This document shows, piece after piece, positions 2,452 through 9,131 of a stretch of DNA of 20,977 nt; position 1 is the first letter of the stretch; each line of letters starts with the position of its first letter. Source of the DNA: a virus. The notes under the pieces were generated by a model. That model worked only from the letters and a program-made list of their open reading frames with translations, searched no databases and was not told where the DNA came from. Where the stretch lies: positions 1 through 20,977 of the IMG/VR virus record IMGVR_UViG_3300017752_000218; one strand, 5' to 3'. The position numbers and the translations under genes are program-made.

Positions 2452-2799
2452 GCCAAAATGTTTTTGGTAAAAATTTATGAGAGGGTAACGTATAGGTGGC
2501 TCGGCGCGATTTCCCCGTGATAGGCCGCAAATAAATAAAAATAGGGTCGCCGTGTGGCAATGTGCTTAGGTGTGCGGGCCGTATTGGACATAATGCATAT
2601 TGTGCGTTGTCTCGCGCGGGCGCGTGCTATTCTTTATTGCGGCCAGCGTGTGCAGACAGCAGGCGCCGAGCGCTGGACCGATCACAACGGCGGCCAGAAT
2701 AAAAAGCGCGTTTGCCTTTAAATAGGTGTTTTTTAATTTGACCGATGCGCAAGCGTTGCCAAGATGGGCGCCGATGCGGTCGCGTTTGGCCGCACAATT

Positions 2800-2822
2800 C
2801 ACACACACACACAACACACACA
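2800..2822 (+). repeat. CA-dinucleotide tract upstream of the first early-type gene
   Basis: A (CA)7 run starting at 2800 is followed, after one interruption, by ACACACACA and ends five bases before the ATG at 2827. No Shine-Dalgarno sequence accompanies it. A second such tract stands in the same position before the gene at 5832. Confidence 0.8.
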
Positions 2823-2826
2823 GCAT

Positions 2827-3111
2827 ATGATACACAATATAACAAAGCAGGACCAAGTAACAATTGCGGCCGCGAGGCTAGCAAGTCGAATTAAAGCCGT
2901 GGACCAAGCGGCCGAAATTCTGTTGGACGTCGCACGCCAAACTAAAGGCGAGCTTAAAGACGTGCATTTGACGACCGATACAATACAACGCACGTGGGCC
3001 GCATATAATACGCTTGGCGACGCCGACTGTAAAACACGCGGCGCGGCCGAGTTGCTAGAATGTTCAACGCATACATGGCCAAGCGAAGGACCGAAAGGCG
3101 GCGACAAATGA
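2827..3111 (+). CDS. unrecognised 94-residue early-region protein
   Basis: The frame encodes a largely helical soluble protein, alanine- and threonine-rich, without membrane segments or a motif I recognise. Residues about 8-45 look like two amphipathic helices (AAARLASRIKAVDQAAEILL). The start at 2827 comes just after a CA-repeat tract. An in-frame ATG at 2764 would add 21 residues, but these would include a translated CA repeat (HTHTQHTQH), which looks unlikely. The stop overlaps the next start as ATGA (3108-3111), so the genes are translationally coupled. Base composition is GC-rich and unlike the terminase genes, as in the rest of 2480-5230. Confidence 0.6.
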   Translation: MIHNITKQDQVTIAAARLASRIKAVDQAAEILLDVARQTKGELKDVHLTTDTIQRTWAAYNTLGDADCKTRGAAELLECSTHTWPSEGPKGGDK

Positions 3112-3293
3112 GCAAACGATACTACGACAGGCGCTTGCGCGAGCAATTGAAGCTCTCGCGTATGCTATTAACGGCGCAGATTGCGCATACATGGAACCAA
3201 GAGTTTGGGCCAAACGTGCGCGAGATTTTAGAGCGTGCTAAAGCCGAGATTTCCGCGGCTATTTACGAAATCGACGAAAGGCTAGCCAAGTGA
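3108..3293 (+). CDS. unrecognised small basic helical protein (61 aa)
   Basis: The product opens with a basic patch (MSKRYYDRRLREQLKLSR) and continues as charged helix to IYEIDERLAK. It has no cysteines and no membrane segment. I chose ATG 3108 because it overlaps the previous stop as ATGA, the pattern used elsewhere in this run. In-frame ATGs at 3060 and 3075 would add up to 16 very basic residues (FNAYMAKRRTERRRQ). The 3' end overlaps the next gene by four bases. The charge pattern would allow nucleic-acid binding, but there is no motif to prove it. Confidence 0.55.
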   Translation: MSKRYYDRRLREQLKLSRMLLTAQIAHTWNQEFGPNVREILERAKAEISAAIYEIDERLAK

Positions 3294-3526
3294 TCGCATA
3301 TAAAAGCAGTTTAAACGATGCCGAGCGTGCGCAAATTGACGATTATACCGACGACTTGTTGGCGTCAATTGAAGCCGACGGCGAGTTGCGCGAGGAATAC
3401 TACGCCGATACATCCAGCGGCGCACGCATTGACTTGCGCGGCGCTTCCCACACTGAAAAAGTAACTCTAGCCGTGCGCATGGACGTGCGCGGCAATATAA
3501 CAACCACACAATACGCAGGAAAATAA
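3290..3526 (+). CDS. unrecognised 78-residue protein with GTG start
   Basis: The gene starts with GTG, overlapping the upstream stop as GTGA (3290-3293), and ends five bases before the DUF932-like gene. The N-terminal half is acidic and helical (residues 8-40, DAERAQIDDYTDDLLASIEA and on). The second half looks like beta strands (RIDLRGASHTEKVTLAVRMD). No catalytic motif is visible. It is the third member of the coupled run and shares its GC-rich codon use, so it is probably expressed with the DUF932-like protein. Confidence 0.6.
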   Translation: MIAYKSSLNDAERAQIDDYTDDLLASIEADGELREEYYADTSSGARIDLRGASHTEKVTLAVRMDVRGNITTTQYAGK

Positions 3527-3530
3527 GAAA

Positions 3531-4313
3531 ATGATACATACAACAACAACAACCGAGGGCTTCGGCCCAAAAATGCTCAACCTTAATATAATGGCGGGCG
3601 ATATCGACGACCGCGGCGCAACGTTTGACGACGTATGCGCTATTGAAACACCGACGCCGACGGCCAGTTGGCGGCCAGTGGCACACGGGCGCACAATTGA
3701 AGCGCTAGAAAATGCGGCGAGCGCGCACGGCTTGGACGTCGTGCAGTCGAAGCATTTACTGTCTCGCGAGGGCGCGCGTTACTTTGGCCTGTTTCAAGTC
3801 AATATACCGAGCGCAAGCGGCGACATTGCAAGCGTGCTAGGTTTGCGCAATTCACACGACAAGGCGTTTCGTGCTGGTATAATGGCAGGCGACGCGCCGT
3901 TTGTTTGCAGTAATCTATGCTTTCACAACGAGATTGTGCTCGGCCGAAAGCATACGGCTGGCATGAATTTGCGCGTGCTCGGCCAGCTAATGCTCGAAGC
4001 GATAGATAGGCTAATCAGCGCGCGCGGCGTTATTGACGACCGCAACGACCGAATGAAAAATGTCACGTGCTCCGATCGCCAAGCTCACGATATCATATTG
4101 AAGGCCGCACGTAATGGAGCTTGTGCGCCGTCGCATATCGGGAAAGTTGCCGACCAGTGGCACAAGCCAGAACACGCCGAGTTTGCGGGCGAGAAAAACG
4201 TCTGGCGTTTACAAAACGCGTTTACAAACGTATGGCGTGGCACGCCGAGTGCAACGGCCAGTCGATCGGCGGCGCTTGCGCAGGTAATAAACGCCGAAAC
4301 AGCTTGCGTTTAA
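3531..4313 (+). CDS. DUF932-family protein (phage/plasmid type)
   Basis: The 260-residue protein shows landmarks I associate with the DUF932 family of phage- and plasmid-borne proteins: a helical stretch near 55-70 leading into a strand (YFGLFQVNI, 84-92), the sequence GLRNSHDKAFR (104-114) and the VCSN motif (125-128). The family's biochemical role is not established; it is common on plasmids and phages near replication or host-interaction genes. Here it is the last and largest gene of a coupled run, four bases after the previous stop, with a possible purine-rich ribosome site (AGGAAAA). A terminator follows within about 30 bases. Its N-terminus begins with a threonine run encoded by ACA repeats. 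Confidence 0.65.
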   Translation: MIHTTTTTEGFGPKMLNLNIMAGDIDDRGATFDDVCAIETPTPTASWRPVAHGRTIEALENAASAHGLDVVQSKHLLSREGARYFGLFQVNIPSASGDIASVLGLRNSHDKAFRAGIMAGDAPFVCSNLCFHNEIVLGRKHTAGMNLRVLGQLMLEAIDRLISARGVIDDRNDRMKNVTCSDRQAHDIILKAARNGACAPSHIGKVADQWHKPEHAEFAGEKNVWRLQNAFTNVWRGTPSATASRSAALAQVINAETACV

Positions 4314-4341
4314 AATAGCAACAAAAGCTTAAATGCTTTGC

Positions 4342-4367
4342 AAGGTCGCCGAAAGGCGGCCTTTTTT
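4342..4367 (+). terminator. rho-independent terminator between the DUF932-like and GP88-like genes
   Basis: AAGGTCGCC and GGCGGCCTT pair (one G-T pair) around a GAAA tetraloop, and the stem runs directly into a T run (4362-4367). It begins 28 bases after the DUF932-like stop and ends eight bases before the chosen GP88-like start, so that gene needs read-through or its own promoter. Confidence 0.8.
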
Positions 4368-4374
4368 GTGGCCT

Positions 4375-5076
4375 ATGTCTAAACATATACACAACAGCGG
4401 CCGAGCGCGGCCTTTAAAGCGCGATATCCTACAGCGGGCACACGAGACGTGTGGCACGCTTTCACAACCGTCAAAAATGCCATGCTATGGCTTTTCACTA
4501 CCAGCGCAACGTTGCCAAGTGGGCGGCAAACTGCAAAGCGTCAAAAATTCGACGTGCTTCAAATGCTATGCATTAAAAGGCAACTATTTACGCGGCAACG
4601 TGCGCAATGCGCTAGAGTTACGCTATAGCAAGTTAATGCAGGCGCAGGCCAGTGGAAAGCTGGACCAGTGGGCCGAGCAGATGGCCGCGCAGATTAACGC
4701 TTGCGAGAAAAGCGGCTTTTTTCGTTGGCACGATAGCGGCGACATTCAAAGTGCGGCGCATTTGCTGGCCATCTTTAAAGCGTGCGAGTTAACGCCGCAT
4801 ATAAAGCACTGGTTGCCGACTCGCGAGCTAGCACACACACGAGAGGCGCTAGCGGCGCGTAAAAAGCCGAGTAATTTAACGATTAGACTTTCCGCATTAA
4901 AGCGCGAGTTTCCGCCAAGCGCGGCCGTGGCCGAAAAATTAGGCGTGCAAACTTCGACCGTAAGTTGGACCGATAGCGGCGCGACGTGTGGCGCCAATAA
5001 AAACGGCGGCGAGTGTGGCGAATGTCGCGCGTGCTGGGCGCCGAGTGTGGCAAATGTCGATTACCCATTGCATTAA
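4375..5076 (+). CDS. GP88-like cysteine-rich phage protein
   Basis: The 233-residue protein resembles the phage Gene product 88 family, whose function is unknown to me. The signs are a CFKCYALKG motif (C61, C64), FRWHDSGD (116-123), a HWLPTREL segment (145-152) and SNLTIRLSA (166-174). There are also cysteines at 26, 37, 47 and 110 and a cluster at the C-terminus (C205, C214, C217, C220), so a metal or iron-sulfur site is plausible but not shown. I start it at ATG 4375 because the in-frame ATG at 4333 lies before a terminator hairpin that would otherwise be coding. It shares the atypical GC-rich composition of its neighbours. A 25-residue membrane peptide follows one base after its stop. Confidence 0.7.
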   Translation: MSKHIHNSGRARPLKRDILQRAHETCGTLSQPSKMPCYGFSLPAQRCQVGGKLQSVKNSTCFKCYALKGNYLRGNVRNALELRYSKLMQAQASGKLDQWAEQMAAQINACEKSGFFRWHDSGDIQSAAHLLAIFKACELTPHIKHWLPTRELAHTREALAARKKPSNLTIRLSALKREFPPSAAVAEKLGVQTSTVSWTDSGATCGANKNGGECGECRACWAPSVANVDYPLH

Positions 5077-5077
5077 A

Positions 5078-5155
5078 ATGGTAATGCTAATATTAACGGC
5101 GGCCATGCTTTCAGTGGGCGTGCTTTGCATAATCGGCGCTTTTATCGTGCGATAA
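5078..5155 (+). CDS. 25-residue single-membrane-segment peptide
   Basis: ATG is one base after the GP88-like stop. Nearly all of the 25 residues form one hydrophobic helix (MVMLILTAAMLSVGVLCIIG and on), ending in a single Arg. Codons resemble those of the genes before it. Position suggests translational coupling to the GP88-like gene. Small phage membrane peptides can be holin-like, pinholin-like or inhibitors of host membrane proteins; nothing here decides between these, and so short a frame could be accidental. Confidence 0.4.
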   Translation: MVMLILTAAMLSVGVLCIIGAFIVR

Positions 5156-5220
5156 ATTGACGGCGGCGCCGACGGCCAAACGAACGGCGGCCAGATTTGC
5201 GGCCCAAAATCTTGGCAGCA

Positions 5221-5250
5221 ATTTTCCATACCCTAGGGGTAAAATTTTTA
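5221..5250 (+). terminator. possible weak terminator
   Basis: ATTTT and TACCC on the left can pair with GGGTA and AAAAT on the right around a three-base loop, with a CCA bulge, followed by a T run. The bulge and tiny loop make it doubtful. It sits where the GC-rich segment ends. Confidence 0.3.
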
Positions 5251-5262
5251 TAATTATTTTTA

Positions 5263-5291
5263 TTGACCAGCGAATTAAATTTCAGTCAAAT
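5263..5291 (+). promoter_or_regulatory. candidate sigma70-like promoter before the SLT gene
   Basis: TTGACC (5263-5268) and TCAAAT (5286-5291) are separated by 17 bases, 44 bases before the SLT start. The -10 candidate is the beginning of the first TCAAATCTGTTTT repeat. The match is partial (five of six and four of six to consensus). Confidence 0.35.
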
Positions 5292-5323
5292 CTGTTTTTC
5301 CGAGCAATCAAATCTGTTTTTCC
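5285..5323 (+). repeat. TCAAATCTGTTTT repeat, copies 1 and 2
   Basis: GTCAAATCTGTTTTTCC at 5285-5301 and ATCAAATCTGTTTTTCC at 5307-5323 share 16 bases and are spaced 22 bases apart, two helical turns, on the same strand. The second ends 11 bases before the SLT start codon. The same core recurs at 5662 and 6510. Confidence 0.85.
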
Positions 5324-5334
5324 ACCACAAATTT

Positions 5335-5706
5335 ATGACGTATCTGACAATTATTTTAGCACTAATTGCAGTAGAATCTACTGACAATGACAACGCAATA
5401 GGAGACGATGGGCTTGCTTACGGGTGCCTACAGATGCACGCGGCCTATGTGCAGGACGCCGCAGAGTATGCGGGGGAGCAGTGGGTGCATGGGGATGCGT
5501 TTGATCGGCAAACATCCATTGATATATTTCTTGCTTACATGGCACGCTACGCAACCGAAGCCAGATTGGGCAGGGTTGTGACGGCCGAGGATATAGTGCG
5601 CATACACAACGGAGGCCCGAACGGCTGGAAAAAAGAATCTACCAAACCACACTGGAACAAAGTCAAATCTGTTTTAGTCAACACACAAACCCAATACAAA
5701 CTATGA
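5335..5706 (+). CDS. SLT-type lytic transglycosylase / endolysin-like enzyme
   Basis: The 123-residue product keeps the lysozyme-like SLT pattern: the catalytic Glu in an ES motif (E14, AVESTDNDNAIG), the GxxQ-type motif GCLQM (30-34) and HNGGPNG (91-97), which stands for the usual AYNAGP block near the active site. It should cleave peptidoglycan. The domain fills the whole protein and the ES motif is only 14 residues from the start. The hydrophobic TYLTIILALIAV before it may therefore be the first helix of the fold rather than an export signal. It overlaps a tiny membrane-protein gene as ATGA. Position among early-type genes, rather than beside terminase or primase, is unusual. Its 3' end contains repeat copy 3. 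Confidence 0.75.
   Translation: MTYLTIILALIAVESTDNDNAIGDDGLAYGCLQMHAAYVQDAAEYAGEQWVHGDAFDRQTSIDIFLAYMARYATEARLGRVVTAEDIVRIHNGGPNGWKKESTKPHWNKVKSVLVNTQTQYKL
5662..5676 (+). repeat. TCAAATCTGTTTT repeat, copy 3
   Basis: GTCAAATCTGTTTTA lies inside the end of the SLT coding sequence (encoding VKSVL) and 27 bases before the start of the 33-residue membrane protein. It is in the same orientation as the other copies. Confidence 0.8.
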
Positions 5707-5804
5707 AACTATCCGATGATCAAATCTTTGTGCTTTGCATGATGTCAAGCGTAGTGACAGCAATCATTTGCTTTTGCTACGGCTTCTACCACACGCAGTT
5801 ATAA
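5703..5804 (+). CDS. 33-residue membrane protein, holin candidate
   Basis: ATG overlaps the SLT stop as ATGA (5703-5706). The product is MKLSDDQ followed by one hydrophobic, cysteine-containing segment (residues 8-28, FVLCMMSSVVTAIICFCYGF) and a short polar tail YHTQL. Coupling to a muralytic enzyme is the classic place for a holin or other lysis partner, but the protein is smaller than most holins and the role is inferred from position only. Confidence 0.5.
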   Translation: MKLSDDQIFVLCMMSSVVTAIICFCYGFYHTQL

Positions 5805-5806
5805 AC

Positions 5807-5828
5807 CACACACACACACACACACACA
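5807..5828 (+). repeat. (CA)11 tract upstream of the gene at 5832
   Basis: Eleven perfect CA units end four bases before the ATG at 5832, where a Shine-Dalgarno sequence would be expected. This repeats the arrangement seen at 2800-2822. Confidence 0.9.
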
Positions 5829-5831
5829 ACC

Positions 5832-6113
5832 ATGAAAAAACTAATAAACCAACTACACACAGAGGTGCAGGATGCACTTAACGAGCCAGAGCCACACGAT
5901 TATTACGAGCGGCTAGAAAGAATGGAAGCTTTAGTAAAGAAGCTTAGAGCTGAAAGCGAGGGAACTATGATTCTGTCTCGGACGGCATACAACAAGGGGT
6001 TTTCGGATGCTATGGCTGGGGACAACTTCAACCCGCCGTATAAGATTAATGATGATCGGCATGCAGACTACTCGTTTGGATTTCAAATAGGATGCAAAGA
6101 ATACGAGGCATAG
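5832..6113 (+). CDS. unknown 93-residue protein, RMF-like C-terminal pattern
   Basis: The N-terminal half (residues 1-42) is charged and helical, probably a coiled coil (YYERLERMEALVKKLRAES). The C-terminal half has two aromatic-glycine helices, AYNKGFSDAMAGDNFNPPY and DYSFGFQIGCKEY. That pairing recalls the small RMF/CrpP-type fold of ribosome modulation factor, which has two short helices with Gly-aromatic repeats and an NPPY/CPY-like turn. The similarity is by eye and weak. The gene begins after a CA tract and precedes another unknown gene by five bases. Confidence 0.6.
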   Translation: MKKLINQLHTEVQDALNEPEPHDYYERLERMEALVKKLRAESEGTMILSRTAYNKGFSDAMAGDNFNPPYKINDDRHADYSFGFQIGCKEYEA

Positions 6114-6118
6114 ATCAC

Positions 6119-6433
6119 ATGGAAAAGCCACTACAATACAATCGCTATCTTATCCACCTCTCGATGATCAACCGTTACCTATGCTATCCTAAAAGCATGA
6201 CGGCAAAGACATATCATCGGCACAACAAGGACGACCTGCTTGAGATGGCAAAAGATATTAACCAGTTTGAGGATGCTGAGCTGGTAGCCTTGACGCCAGC
6301 AAGAGATGTTGAAATCCACGATGGTATGAAGTATACCAACACCAGAATAAGTGGAGACGAGATGCGCCTTTCTATGGCCGATGTCATGCCTGTTGGGGGT
6401 CACACTCTCGCCGATCCTAACTCAAGCTTCTAA
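6119..6433 (+). CDS. unrecognised 104-residue protein
   Basis: The product is hydrophilic, with a basic tyrosine-rich N-terminus (YNRYLIHLSMINRYLCYPKS), a central helix (DDLLEMAKDINQFEDAELVA) and a proline/glycine-containing tail. No motif is recognised. I chose ATG 6119, with a GAGG about ten bases upstream. An in-frame ATG at 6092 would overlap the previous gene by 22 bases, and ATGs at 6164 and 6197 are also possible. It is the last gene before the strong terminator at 6471. Confidence 0.5.
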   Translation: MEKPLQYNRYLIHLSMINRYLCYPKSMTAKTYHRHNKDDLLEMAKDINQFEDAELVALTPARDVEIHDGMKYTNTRISGDEMRLSMADVMPVGGHTLADPNSSF

Positions 6434-6470
6434 GGGTATTTTTGTCCCATTAAACGCTATTCCTGCCACA

Positions 6471-6504
6471 AAGGGCCTGATTCGTAATGAGTCAGGTCCT
6501 TTTT
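6471..6504 (+). terminator. strong rho-independent terminator before the RNA polymerase control region
   Basis: AAGGGCCTGATTC pairs with GAGTCAGGTCCTT (13 bp with two G-T pairs) around a five-base loop GTAAT, and a T run follows. It separates the early-type genes from the RNA polymerase gene. Confidence 0.9.
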
Positions 6505-6509
6505 CTTTG

Positions 6510-6525
6510 GTCAAATCTGTTTTTC
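6510..6525 (+). repeat. TCAAATCTGTTTT repeat, copy 4
   Basis: GTCAAATCTGTTTTTC follows the terminator directly and shares 16 bases with copy 1, in the same orientation. It lies about 200 bases before the RNA polymerase start. Confidence 0.85.
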
Positions 6526-6547: not shown

Positions 6548-6579
6548 TTGACTCACCTCTATATGTATACATATATAAT
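6548..6579 (+). promoter_or_regulatory. candidate host-type promoter with a 16-bp palindrome in the spacer
   Basis: TTGACT (6548-6553) is followed after 18 bases by TATATA and, two bases later, by a perfect TATAAT (6574-6579). A perfect 16-bp palindrome, TATATGTATACATATA, occupies 6560-6575 between and into the boxes, where a repressor dimer would block the promoter. It could drive the phage RNA polymerase gene 145 bases downstream. A second TTGACA is present at 6685-6690 but has no good partner. Confidence 0.5.
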
Positions 6580-6589
6580 AGTTAATAAC

Positions 6590-6700
6590 TTGTTAACAAC
6601 TAGTATAGAATACAGTTATAGCTACTTAAAGAAAGAGTTATACTACATTCTATACTATATTCTATACAACTAGTTATACTATACTTGACAGTTATAATAA
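6590..6700. repeat. AT-rich region with repeated AGTTATA boxes and inverted repeats
   Basis: AGTTATA occurs at 6614, 6636, 6672 and 6690, all on the + strand. ATTCTATAC is repeated at 6647 and 6659, and TAGTATAGAAT (6601-6611) is the exact reverse complement of 6647-6657. CAACTAGT is repeated at 6597 and 6667. Such AT-rich iterated DNA next to the RNA polymerase gene could be a replication origin or a regulatory leader; no function is shown. Confidence 0.5.
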
Positions 6701-6722: not shown

Positions 6723-9131
6723 ATGCAGAAACTAGATTTTCCAAACAAGGATAAAACAGCAGAGACGGAGATGCTGTCAAAGGGAGTAGATAAACTCCGT
6801 TCTCACGTAGAGTCAGCTCGTAACAGGGAAGCAGAAGCTGAGACTTGTTATGGTCAGCGACTGCTACGAGAGGCTGTTCCTTTGTTAGTAGATGGGATTG
6901 AAGATTGGTTTAAGCAACAGCGTAAATCTCCTAATCCAAGTAACGCTTATTACGAACTTTTTCAGCTGAGTCCTAAAGTTGTTTCATTCATAGCACTAAA
7001 AAGCATAGTAGATACACTGACACAGCGAAGGGCGTTAGCTTCTGCGGCTATAAAACTAGGAGCACTTGTAGAGGATGAAGCACACTTCGGAGCATTCTCA
7101 GAACATCCTAACTTTAAACAGATACTACAGGGGGCTGACAAACGCCCTAACTATAAGAAGAAGCGATACTATGTTATCCACTCTGAGAGAGGTGAAGTAT
7201 CAAAAGGAGCGGCCGAAGAGTGGGAGCGCTGGGGAACTAGAATCAAGCTCCATATTGGAACTGTTCTAATTACACTGATTAAAGAGTATACTGGTTTGTT
7301 GGATTATGTTATGATCCAGACCACGAAGAGAGGGCCAGCTCGTTTTATACAGGCAACGAAAAAAACTCAGGAGTGGATAGAAGAGATGATCCGATATAAC
7401 GAGGGTCTCGATCCTTTTTGGATGCCACTACAGGAGTTTCCTAAGCAGTGGACAGACAAGTGGAGTGGTGGCTATGATGTAGAGAACGGGTTGCCGCCAG
7501 TCAGTATTATTAAAACAAAGGATAAAGCATTCTTACGAAAGAATGAGGAGCCTATGACTGAGGTCATGTCCTGCCTTAATCATTTACAGAATACTCCGTG
7601 GTCTATTAACAAGCCAGTGTTCCAGACCTTATCAGATATATGGGATGATAATATAAAGATTGGATCACTACCAGCAAAGGAGGATGAGGAACTGCCGCCG
7701 CTGACCGAGGAGATGAAAGAGGACCCTAACGAACTTAAAATGTGGAAGCGTAGGGCCGCACAAGTTTACGAGTTTAACGCCTCCACGAAGAGCAGGCGCC
7801 TGCTGGTAATGAATACAATCATGATGGCAAAGAAGTTTGCCGACAAAAGATTGTTCCTTCCGCACCAGTGTGACTTTCGGGGGCGTGCTTATGCAATCCC
7901 TGCTTACCTTAACCACATGGGGCCAGACTTTAGTAAAGGGCTGATGAGGTTTGAAGCTGAAGAACCAGTTACAACCGACGCTCAATTAAAGTGGCTTCAC
8001 GTTCACGGCGCTAACACCTTCGGCATAAAAGGAACTTATGACCAGAGAGTAGCTTGGATAGAGGAGCATCAGAATAAAATTATAAACCTAGCTACAAACT
8101 ACAGGGCTGAGTTAGATTTTTTAAATGAAGCTGACGAAACCTTTCAGTTTATAGCTTACGCTCACGAGTTTAAGCGTCTGCACGAGACTAAAGGCACCTT
8201 CAACACTACATTGCCTTGCCAGATGGATGGCACAAACAACGGCCTGCAAATTTTAGGGATGCTAACAAGAGATGAATCATCTTGTATTGCTACCAATGTG
8301 GCACCGTCTGACATACCACAAGATATTTACGGTATTGTAGCCTTGAGAGCACGCGAGACGATGGCCCAAGACGACAACCCTTTTGCCAACCTATGGCTAC
8401 AGTTTGGCATAACCAGAGCGTGTGCCAAACGCCCTACAATGACACAACCCTATGGCTCAACCCCGCATAGTTGCAGAGCCTATGTCAACGGTTGGTATCT
8501 TGAGCAAGTGAGAGCAGGTAAGCCTGATCCATTTGACGAGGAAACTCGGTTTCAAGCTACCGCCTACCTTTCAACTCATATCTGGAATGCCATCAGTCAT
8601 GTTGTCGGCCGCCCAAGAGAAGCGATGGCTTGGCTACAGAAGACAGCAAGAAAGCTAGCCAACGCTGAGAAGCCTATGTATTGGGTCAGTCCCTCTGGCT
8701 TTCCTTGCTATCAGGCATATCCCAAGTGGATGGAGAAGTCTATCCGCACTAAGATAGGTGAGAAAGTATACCGCGTTAAGTTCCGTGAGGATACAGATAA
8801 GCTTTCCCCAAAACGTCAGGCGCAGGGTAGCTCCCCAAACTTTGTGCATAGTCTGGATGCGGCTTGCCTACACCTAACCGTAAATAGATGCGCCGAACAA
8901 GGCATCAGCAACTTTGCAATGGTTCATGACAGCTATGGCACACACTGCACGCAGGCTGATAAGCTTGCTCACGAGATACGCCAGTCAATGCACCACATCT
9001 TTAGCGACGATCAGTTGTTAAAATTAAAAACACACCTAGAGCATATCAACGAGTTGACACTCGACCCGTTGCCAGCTTATGGTTCCTTTGACATCAATGA
9101 TGTCTTAAACTCAAAGTATATATTCTCATGA
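6723..9131 (+). CDS. single-subunit DNA-directed RNA polymerase (T7 gp1-like)
   Basis: The 802-residue enzyme transcribes the middle and late phage genes from phage-specific promoters. The catalytic parts are intact and in order: a DFRGRAY block near 381-387 of the palm, the first catalytic Asp in MDGTNNGLQ (D502), the fingers motif RACAKRPTMTQPYG with R565, K569 and Y577 matching R627, K631 and Y639 of T7, and HDSYG with the second catalytic Asp (D736). It ends FS, close to the FAFA end of T7. It is about 80 residues shorter than T7 (883), mostly before the catalytic core. It follows an AT-rich control region and overlaps the SSB gene as ATGA. Confidence 0.97.
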   Translation: MQKLDFPNKDKTAETEMLSKGVDKLRSHVESARNREAEAETCYGQRLLREAVPLLVDGIEDWFKQQRKSPNPSNAYYELFQLSPKVVSFIALKSIVDTLTQRRALASAAIKLGALVEDEAHFGAFSEHPNFKQILQGADKRPNYKKKRYYVIHSERGEVSKGAAEEWERWGTRIKLHIGTVLITLIKEYTGLLDYVMIQTTKRGPARFIQATKKTQEWIEEMIRYNEGLDPFWMPLQEFPKQWTDKWSGGYDVENGLPPVSIIKTKDKAFLRKNEEPMTEVMSCLNHLQNTPWSINKPVFQTLSDIWDDNIKIGSLPAKEDEELPPLTEEMKEDPNELKMWKRRAAQVYEFNASTKSRRLLVMNTIMMAKKFADKRLFLPHQCDFRGRAYAIPAYLNHMGPDFSKGLMRFEAEEPVTTDAQLKWLHVHGANTFGIKGTYDQRVAWIEEHQNKIINLATNYRAELDFLNEADETFQFIAYAHEFKRLHETKGTFNTTLPCQMDGTNNGLQILGMLTRDESSCIATNVAPSDIPQDIYGIVALRARETMAQDDNPFANLWLQFGITRACAKRPTMTQPYGSTPHSCRAYVNGWYLEQVRAGKPDPFDEETRFQATAYLSTHIWNAISHVVGRPREAMAWLQKTARKLANAEKPMYWVSPSGFPCYQAYPKWMEKSIRTKIGEKVYRVKFREDTDKLSPKRQAQGSSPNFVHSLDAACLHLTVNRCAEQGISNFAMVHDSYGTHCTQADKLAHEIRQSMHHIFSDDQLLKLKTHLEHINELTLDPLPAYGSFDINDVLNSKYIFS

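Follow-up and report, generated by a model that had tools for sequence, protein, structure and literature searches.

The 20,977-nucleotide stretch of DNA analysed here (the window, which is the entire record) derives from a marine, T7-like phage and carries four exact copies of a 13-base sequence, TCAAATCTGTTTT, which we interpret, at a probability of roughly 0.47, as the operator of a sequence-specific DNA-binding regulator governing early transcription by the host RNA polymerase. As the landing site of a putative regulator, the 13-mer is probably a common phage control element and not new in kind. A search of the whole record located the copies at 5286-5298, 5308-5320, 5663-5675 and 6511-6523, all on the + strand, and no further match with up to two mismatches was found on either strand of the window. 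This agrees with the first-pass annotation, which had described a 13-base core present four times, on the + strand only and absent elsewhere in the 21 kb; its sequence for the element needs correction in one point, as copy 2 begins with A and not G. When the window was shuffled 200 times with dinucleotides preserved and simple repeats left out, no 13-mer reached three or more copies (0/200), and a 10-mer with four copies arose in 4 of 200 such shuffles. The 16-base form TCAAATCTGTTTTTCC occurs at 31 places in the viral collection, which is about the chance expectation; isolated matches elsewhere are therefore uninformative, and the significance of the element lies in its clustering. TCAAATCTGTTTT is not palindromic, and in the published literature only a yeast primer paper mentions it.

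In T7, host promoters and early genes come first and the polymerase gene follows. The window resembles this layout in its terminase, its probable genome end, its variable left block and a polymerase gene behind a host-type promoter, and differs from it in having an SLT/destabilase unit and the repeated 13-mer between the left block and the polymerase gene. The terminase, with a T7-type nuclease domain, occupies 426-2108, and the T7-like gene set further includes a ssDNA-binding protein, endonuclease I, primase/helicase, portal and scaffold. Behind the terminase lies a GC-rich block (~2500-5250, 52-54% GC versus ~45%) of small genes together with the DUF932 and GP88 genes. At ~2463-2489, past the terminase and before this block, the motif GGTAAAAATTT.TGAGA..GTAACG (GGTAAAAATTTATGAGAGGGTAACG) marks the point where the left blocks of relatives cease to align; it is shared with the related contigs L053 and L231 and to some extent with L006, and may be a candidate genome end or packaging site. 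The pair formed by copies 1 and 2 lies past the left block; the SLT/destabilase gene and small genes separate it from a strong terminator, which is followed by copy 4 and then by the polymerase gene with its promoter:

3531-4313, + strand: DUF932 gene in the GC-rich left block, 74% protein identity to L053
4390-5076 (start approximate), + strand: GP88-family gene in the left block, 70% protein identity to L053
5078-5155, + strand: 25-residue membrane peptide at the end of the left block
5229-5251, + strand: weak terminator-like hairpin with a T-rich tail, preceding the pair; the L053 counterpart (4430-4457) is strong
5263-5268, + strand: TTGACC, resembling a -35 hexamer, with a gap of 17 nt to copy 1 (16 nt in L053)
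5286-5298, + strand: core copy 1, TCAAATCTGTTTT (16-17 base form GTCAAATCTGTTTTTCC), with TCAAAT in a putative -10 position
5308-5320, + strand: core copy 2, 22 bp past copy 1, with the SLT start codon 14 bases downstream
5335-5706, + strand: SLT/destabilase-type lysozyme gene (Pfam Destabilase, 2.2e-7)
5663-5675, + strand: core copy 3, in the SLT end codons GTC AAA TCT GTT TTA (V-K-S-V-L)
5703-5804, + strand: 33-residue membrane peptide, missing from the sister contig
6470-6507, + strand: strong terminator of the SLT unit, directly 5' of copy 4
6511-6523, + strand: core copy 4, between the SLT-unit terminator and the RNA polymerase gene promoter
6548-6579, + strand: RNA polymerase gene promoter of host type, TTGACT with TATATA after an 18-nt spacer (alternatively TATAAT after 20 nt)
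6723-9131, + strand: T7-type RNA polymerase (PHROG 414, 7.9e-215)

The operator reading draws mainly on the conservation of the pair. The sister contig G001/L005, whose polymerase is 99% identical, keeps all four cores and holds no more across 24.8 kb, which by itself is weak evidence at a divergence from the window of 2-3% around the sites. L053, a 6-kb contig, has a left block of ~70% nucleotide identity to the window (GP88 70%, DUF932 74% and SLT 75% at the protein level) and contains exact copies as a pair at 4553 and 4579, with a spacing of 26, and as a third site at 5417 in the last SLT codons. Since these copies are exact and the non-coding flanks of the copies are unalignable between the window and L053, the 13-mer is either under selection or recently shared. 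In both phages the GP88-operon terminator is followed by the pair as the first element and then by the next gene. We thus find a repeated sequence that lies at or in putative promoters and is conserved above its flanks, the pair being exact in L053, and copy 4 adjoins the only host-type promoter that is conserved at the polymerase gene. Against an operator count the restriction of the pair to two independent lineages, one of them represented by a 6-kb contig, and the presence in L054 of copy 3 without the pair.

The distribution among the other relatives is uneven. In L054, which matches L053 at 99% identity from SLT onward and differs from it in the genes upstream of SLT, the SLT-end copy stands alone and is exact. 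L006 (polymerase 86% identical) keeps the SLT and polymerase genes with a different left block and has no copy at up to two mismatches in 28 kb, and none lies upstream of the polymerase gene in L090, L214, L216-L219 or L221; among the relatives read, copy 4 is confined to the window lineage, i.e., the window and its sister. The first-pass annotation had proposed looking for loss of the element in close relatives with the same genes, and the outcome is divided: the site is kept in the sister and L053 and absent in L006 despite its SLT and polymerase genes. Pairs with 3-33 bases between the copies were found in only two contigs of the viral collection, the sister and L053, and searches with GP88, DUF932 and the polymerase for relatives of the module yielded no more pair carriers; L231 (DUF932 63%) stops short of the pair region. 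Isolate phages gave no meaningful DNA similarity to the pair region. Host or prophage copies of the pair were considered and rejected: eight bacterial contigs fit the pattern, but these are repeat arrays that differ in spacing and flanks and show no sign of the phage context.

We then considered the copies in relation to promoters. TTGACC lies upstream of the TCAAAT of copy 1 at 17 nt in the window and 16 nt in L053, and in a ranking that used approximate sigma-70 base frequencies this combination was the best promoter-like match of the gap in L053 and the second best in the window. TCAAAT matches the sigma-70 -10 hexamer at 4 of 6 positions, and with C at the second position it is a poor box. 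No TTGACC-type -35 element is found at that spacing from copies 2, 3 and 4. Judged from these hexamers, the arrangement suggests a host-type promoter whose -10/start region coincides with copy 1 and whose initial transcribed region contains copy 2. Of the earlier suggestion that the element is part of a promoter, the host version thus has partial support, from copy 1 at a possible -10 position, and the version involving the phage polymerase is rejected. The promoter of the polymerase gene, TTGACT-18-TATATA, recurs in comparable form in all close relatives.

That TCAAATCTGTTTT could be the promoter used by the T7-type RNA polymerase of the phage itself is suggested by an element that is repeated on one strand and precedes genes in a phage encoding such a polymerase, and same-strand repetition is likewise a property of T7-type phage polymerase promoters. 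The 13-mer, however, does not follow the specificity loop and is absent from late genes. Residues 666-697 of the window polymerase align with residues 739-772 of T7 RNA polymerase (phmmer versus solved structures), which we take to be the specificity loop, and this segment is fully identical in the window and L006. Because the loops are identical, the same promoter would be expected in both phages, and the lack of any copy in the 28 kb of L006, whose polymerase is 86% identical overall, leads us to reject a phage-polymerase promoter. Moreover, phages of the L053 type carry the site with a polymerase only ~61% identical (measured on L054), and no copy precedes the portal, scaffold or other late genes, nor is one present in the sister past the window; these two contigs cover about two thirds of the genome, the remainder being structural genes, if ~40 kb is assumed, the usual size of T7-like phage genomes. 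We regard this explanation as very improbable. A separate sequence, GTTATAGCTACTTAAAGAAAGAGTTATAC at 6618-6646, lies between the polymerase gene and its promoter. L006 has it unchanged, and a related unit of ~65 bp is present in two to three tandem copies in L216-L219; it is a candidate phage-polymerase promoter or replication origin.

If the 13-mer is an operator, a protein bound at the pair, with copy 1 over the -10/start of the SLT-unit promoter and copy 2 just downstream, would prevent transcription from it. The centre of copy 4 is ~65 bp 5' of the point where transcription of the polymerase gene probably starts; from there the same factor could influence that gene, and the position would suit activation or an auxiliary contact; copy 3, within the end of the SLT gene, would serve as an auxiliary, intragenic site. 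Protein binding to TCAAATCTGTTTT and repression at the pair are what we infer from this arrangement. Among the three readings put forward in the first-pass annotation, a binding site for a regulator is the best supported, as two divergent phages have kept the pair where a transcription unit begins, with the binding itself an inferred step. The pair fits tight dimer-dimer cooperation poorly, because the site is non-palindromic and the spacings of 22 and 26 bp differ. The 22-base distance reported earlier is correct, but its description as two turns does not hold, as 22 bp corresponds to 2.1 turns and the spacing in L053 is 26 bp.

A regulator of TCAAATCTGTTTT could be host-encoded, or it could be a small protein of the phage that escaped recognition. 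Genes for MarR (PF01047), HTH_3 and integrase (PF00589) gave no match in seven records, all of them partial genomes, and scans of the small genes gave no DNA-binding protein of the MarR/HTH_3 type. An IHF site was also considered, and by-eye comparison showed that its consensus does not fit TCAAATCTGTTTT.

Copy 3 lies in coding sequence, as claimed earlier, and its core at 5663-5675 forms the last codons of the SLT gene. Between the window and L054, 5 of 5 core codons are identical, versus 33 of 82 same-residue codons gene-wide (chance ~1%). The match to the non-coding copies is too long for coincidence, given a gene of 372 bases, so copy 3 is either a site in its own right or the source of the others. 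The latter possibility extends to an explanation in which copy 3 is ordinary SLT coding sequence and copies 1, 2 and 4 are functionless stray duplicates inherited with the block. It would account for L054, which has copy 3 without the others, and V-K-S/A-V-L is a normal protein end, with L006 carrying near-identical residues (V-K-A-V-L) in other codons. Beyond the sister, L053 and L054, the core is absent from the SLT end of other SLT relatives. Yet only 13-16 bases are common to the copies, with the same core limits and unrelated flanks in two divergent lineages, and functionless copies would be expected to decay where the surrounding non-coding DNA no longer aligns. Stray duplication is, in our judgement, decidedly unlikely. 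The statement that each site precedes a gene is loosely true: copy 3 is the end of SLT, and its link to the 33-residue gene is weakened because the sister contig without that gene keeps copy 3, while copy 4 stands 200 bp before the polymerase gene and precedes it only loosely, being upstream of that gene's own promoter.

The position of the pair at the edge of the GC-rich block (~53% versus 45%) also raises the possibility that TCAAATCTGTTTT marks module borders, as a short stretch of homology or as a recombinase target, and serves in the exchange of the left block and the SLT cassette between phages. L053 and L054 pass from unrelated to 93% identical ~24 bases past the pair, and the divergence between the window and its sister falls near the pair, from 7.4% in GP88 to ~2% in SLT. 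The kinship of the SLT and polymerase genes conflicts, with SLT identities of 75% to L053/L054 and 73% to L006 against polymerase identities of 61% and 86%, and the SLT gene is flanked by the pair and copy 3. However, the breakpoints lie near the repeats and not inside them, we found no locus with the SLT segment excised or swapped exactly at the 13-mer, L054 and L006 differ on both sides without the 13-mer, no tyrosine integrase was found in the records searched, and a tandem pair plus a fourth copy beside a promoter would be unneeded. We consider recombination at the element unlikely. The earlier proposal of a mobile or recombination-linked repeat is correct in placing the pair at the edge of an exchangeable block, but no cassette exchange at the repeats was seen; comparison of these contigs supports left-block exchange between phages well and does not support exchange at the 13-mer. 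A new transcription unit would, moreover, naturally begin at the block edge. Across the GC-rich block (2500-5250), the divergence between window and sister is 7.4-7.7%, versus ~2% in neighbouring genes. Viral contigs contain at least 80 relatives of the SLT/destabilase gene, mostly without such an RNA polymerase gene nearby, and the lysozyme looks like a widely exchanged cargo gene.

As every copy lies on the coding strand, and copies 2 and 3 and their L053 counterparts are 14-40 bases 5' of a start codon, the transcript form, UCAAAUCUGUUUU, might instead be the target of a protein or small RNA controlling translation or stability of the next gene. Leaders in this phage group often hold RNA devices, e.g., the type II hammerhead-like elements of L054. 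No consistent fold emerged for the 13-mer, the pair being more stably folded than shuffles in L053 (z -3.3) and not in the window (z -0.7), and Rfam gave no match at threshold in the window. Copy 4 would seldom be placed in an mRNA leader, because a strong terminator immediately precedes it and the next promoter lies downstream. An RNA-level role accordingly ranks as improbable. The type II hammerhead-like elements (RF02276) occupy early-gene leaders of L054 at 3389-3449, 3831-3881 and 4838-4899; their 28-32 bits fall short of the gathering score (37), but the motifs of the core, CTGACGA, CGAAAC and GTC, are present. A further hammerhead-like element was seen by eye at ~4995-5046 of L053, directly 5' of the SLT gene. 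SLT leaders without the pair share a hairpin, GAGC...GCTC in L006 (9040-9090) and L054 (5945-6000) and AAGC...GCTT in L090 (~5945-6000), in whose place the window has the pair and L053 the hammerhead-like element.

Returning to the operator reading, known systems offer partial parallels. The lac O1/O2 and gal OE/OI operators are palindromic sites over the promoter with one several hundred bases into the transcribed gene. They share with the window the combination of promoter sites and an intragenic auxiliary site, and differ in that the window sites are direct, asymmetric and putative. For LUZ100, a temperate T7-like phage, a MarR-like regulator has been hypothesised to act at sites around the phage polymerase promoter (PMC10134795). 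LUZ100 and its relatives resemble the present phage as T7-like phages with proposed regulator sites by the phage RNA polymerase promoter (PMC10134795); the differences are that searches for MarR-like and integrase genes gave no match here, that the 13-mer is non-palindromic and that most copies surround the SLT unit, not the polymerase promoter. As far as the gene content of these records allows a test, the window would not belong with the MarR-type T7-like lysogeny switches, as neither the regulator nor the integrase gene was found in the seven partial records.

We tentatively suggest a small regulon, which we would still hold to be rather doubtful, in which one factor acts on the lysozyme unit and the RNA polymerase gene with no recognisable lysogeny switch, the site riding the edge of an exchangeable early block and the polymerase-side site having been gained in this lineage only. 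In the usual description, T7-like phages rely on host promoters at first, turn to their own polymerase later and lack control of the operator type. If TCAAATCTGTTTT is an operator, it would provide a defined 13-bp probe for fishing out the regulator, and a conserved set of operators extending to the polymerase gene, if true, would point to a decision step in this marine phage group.
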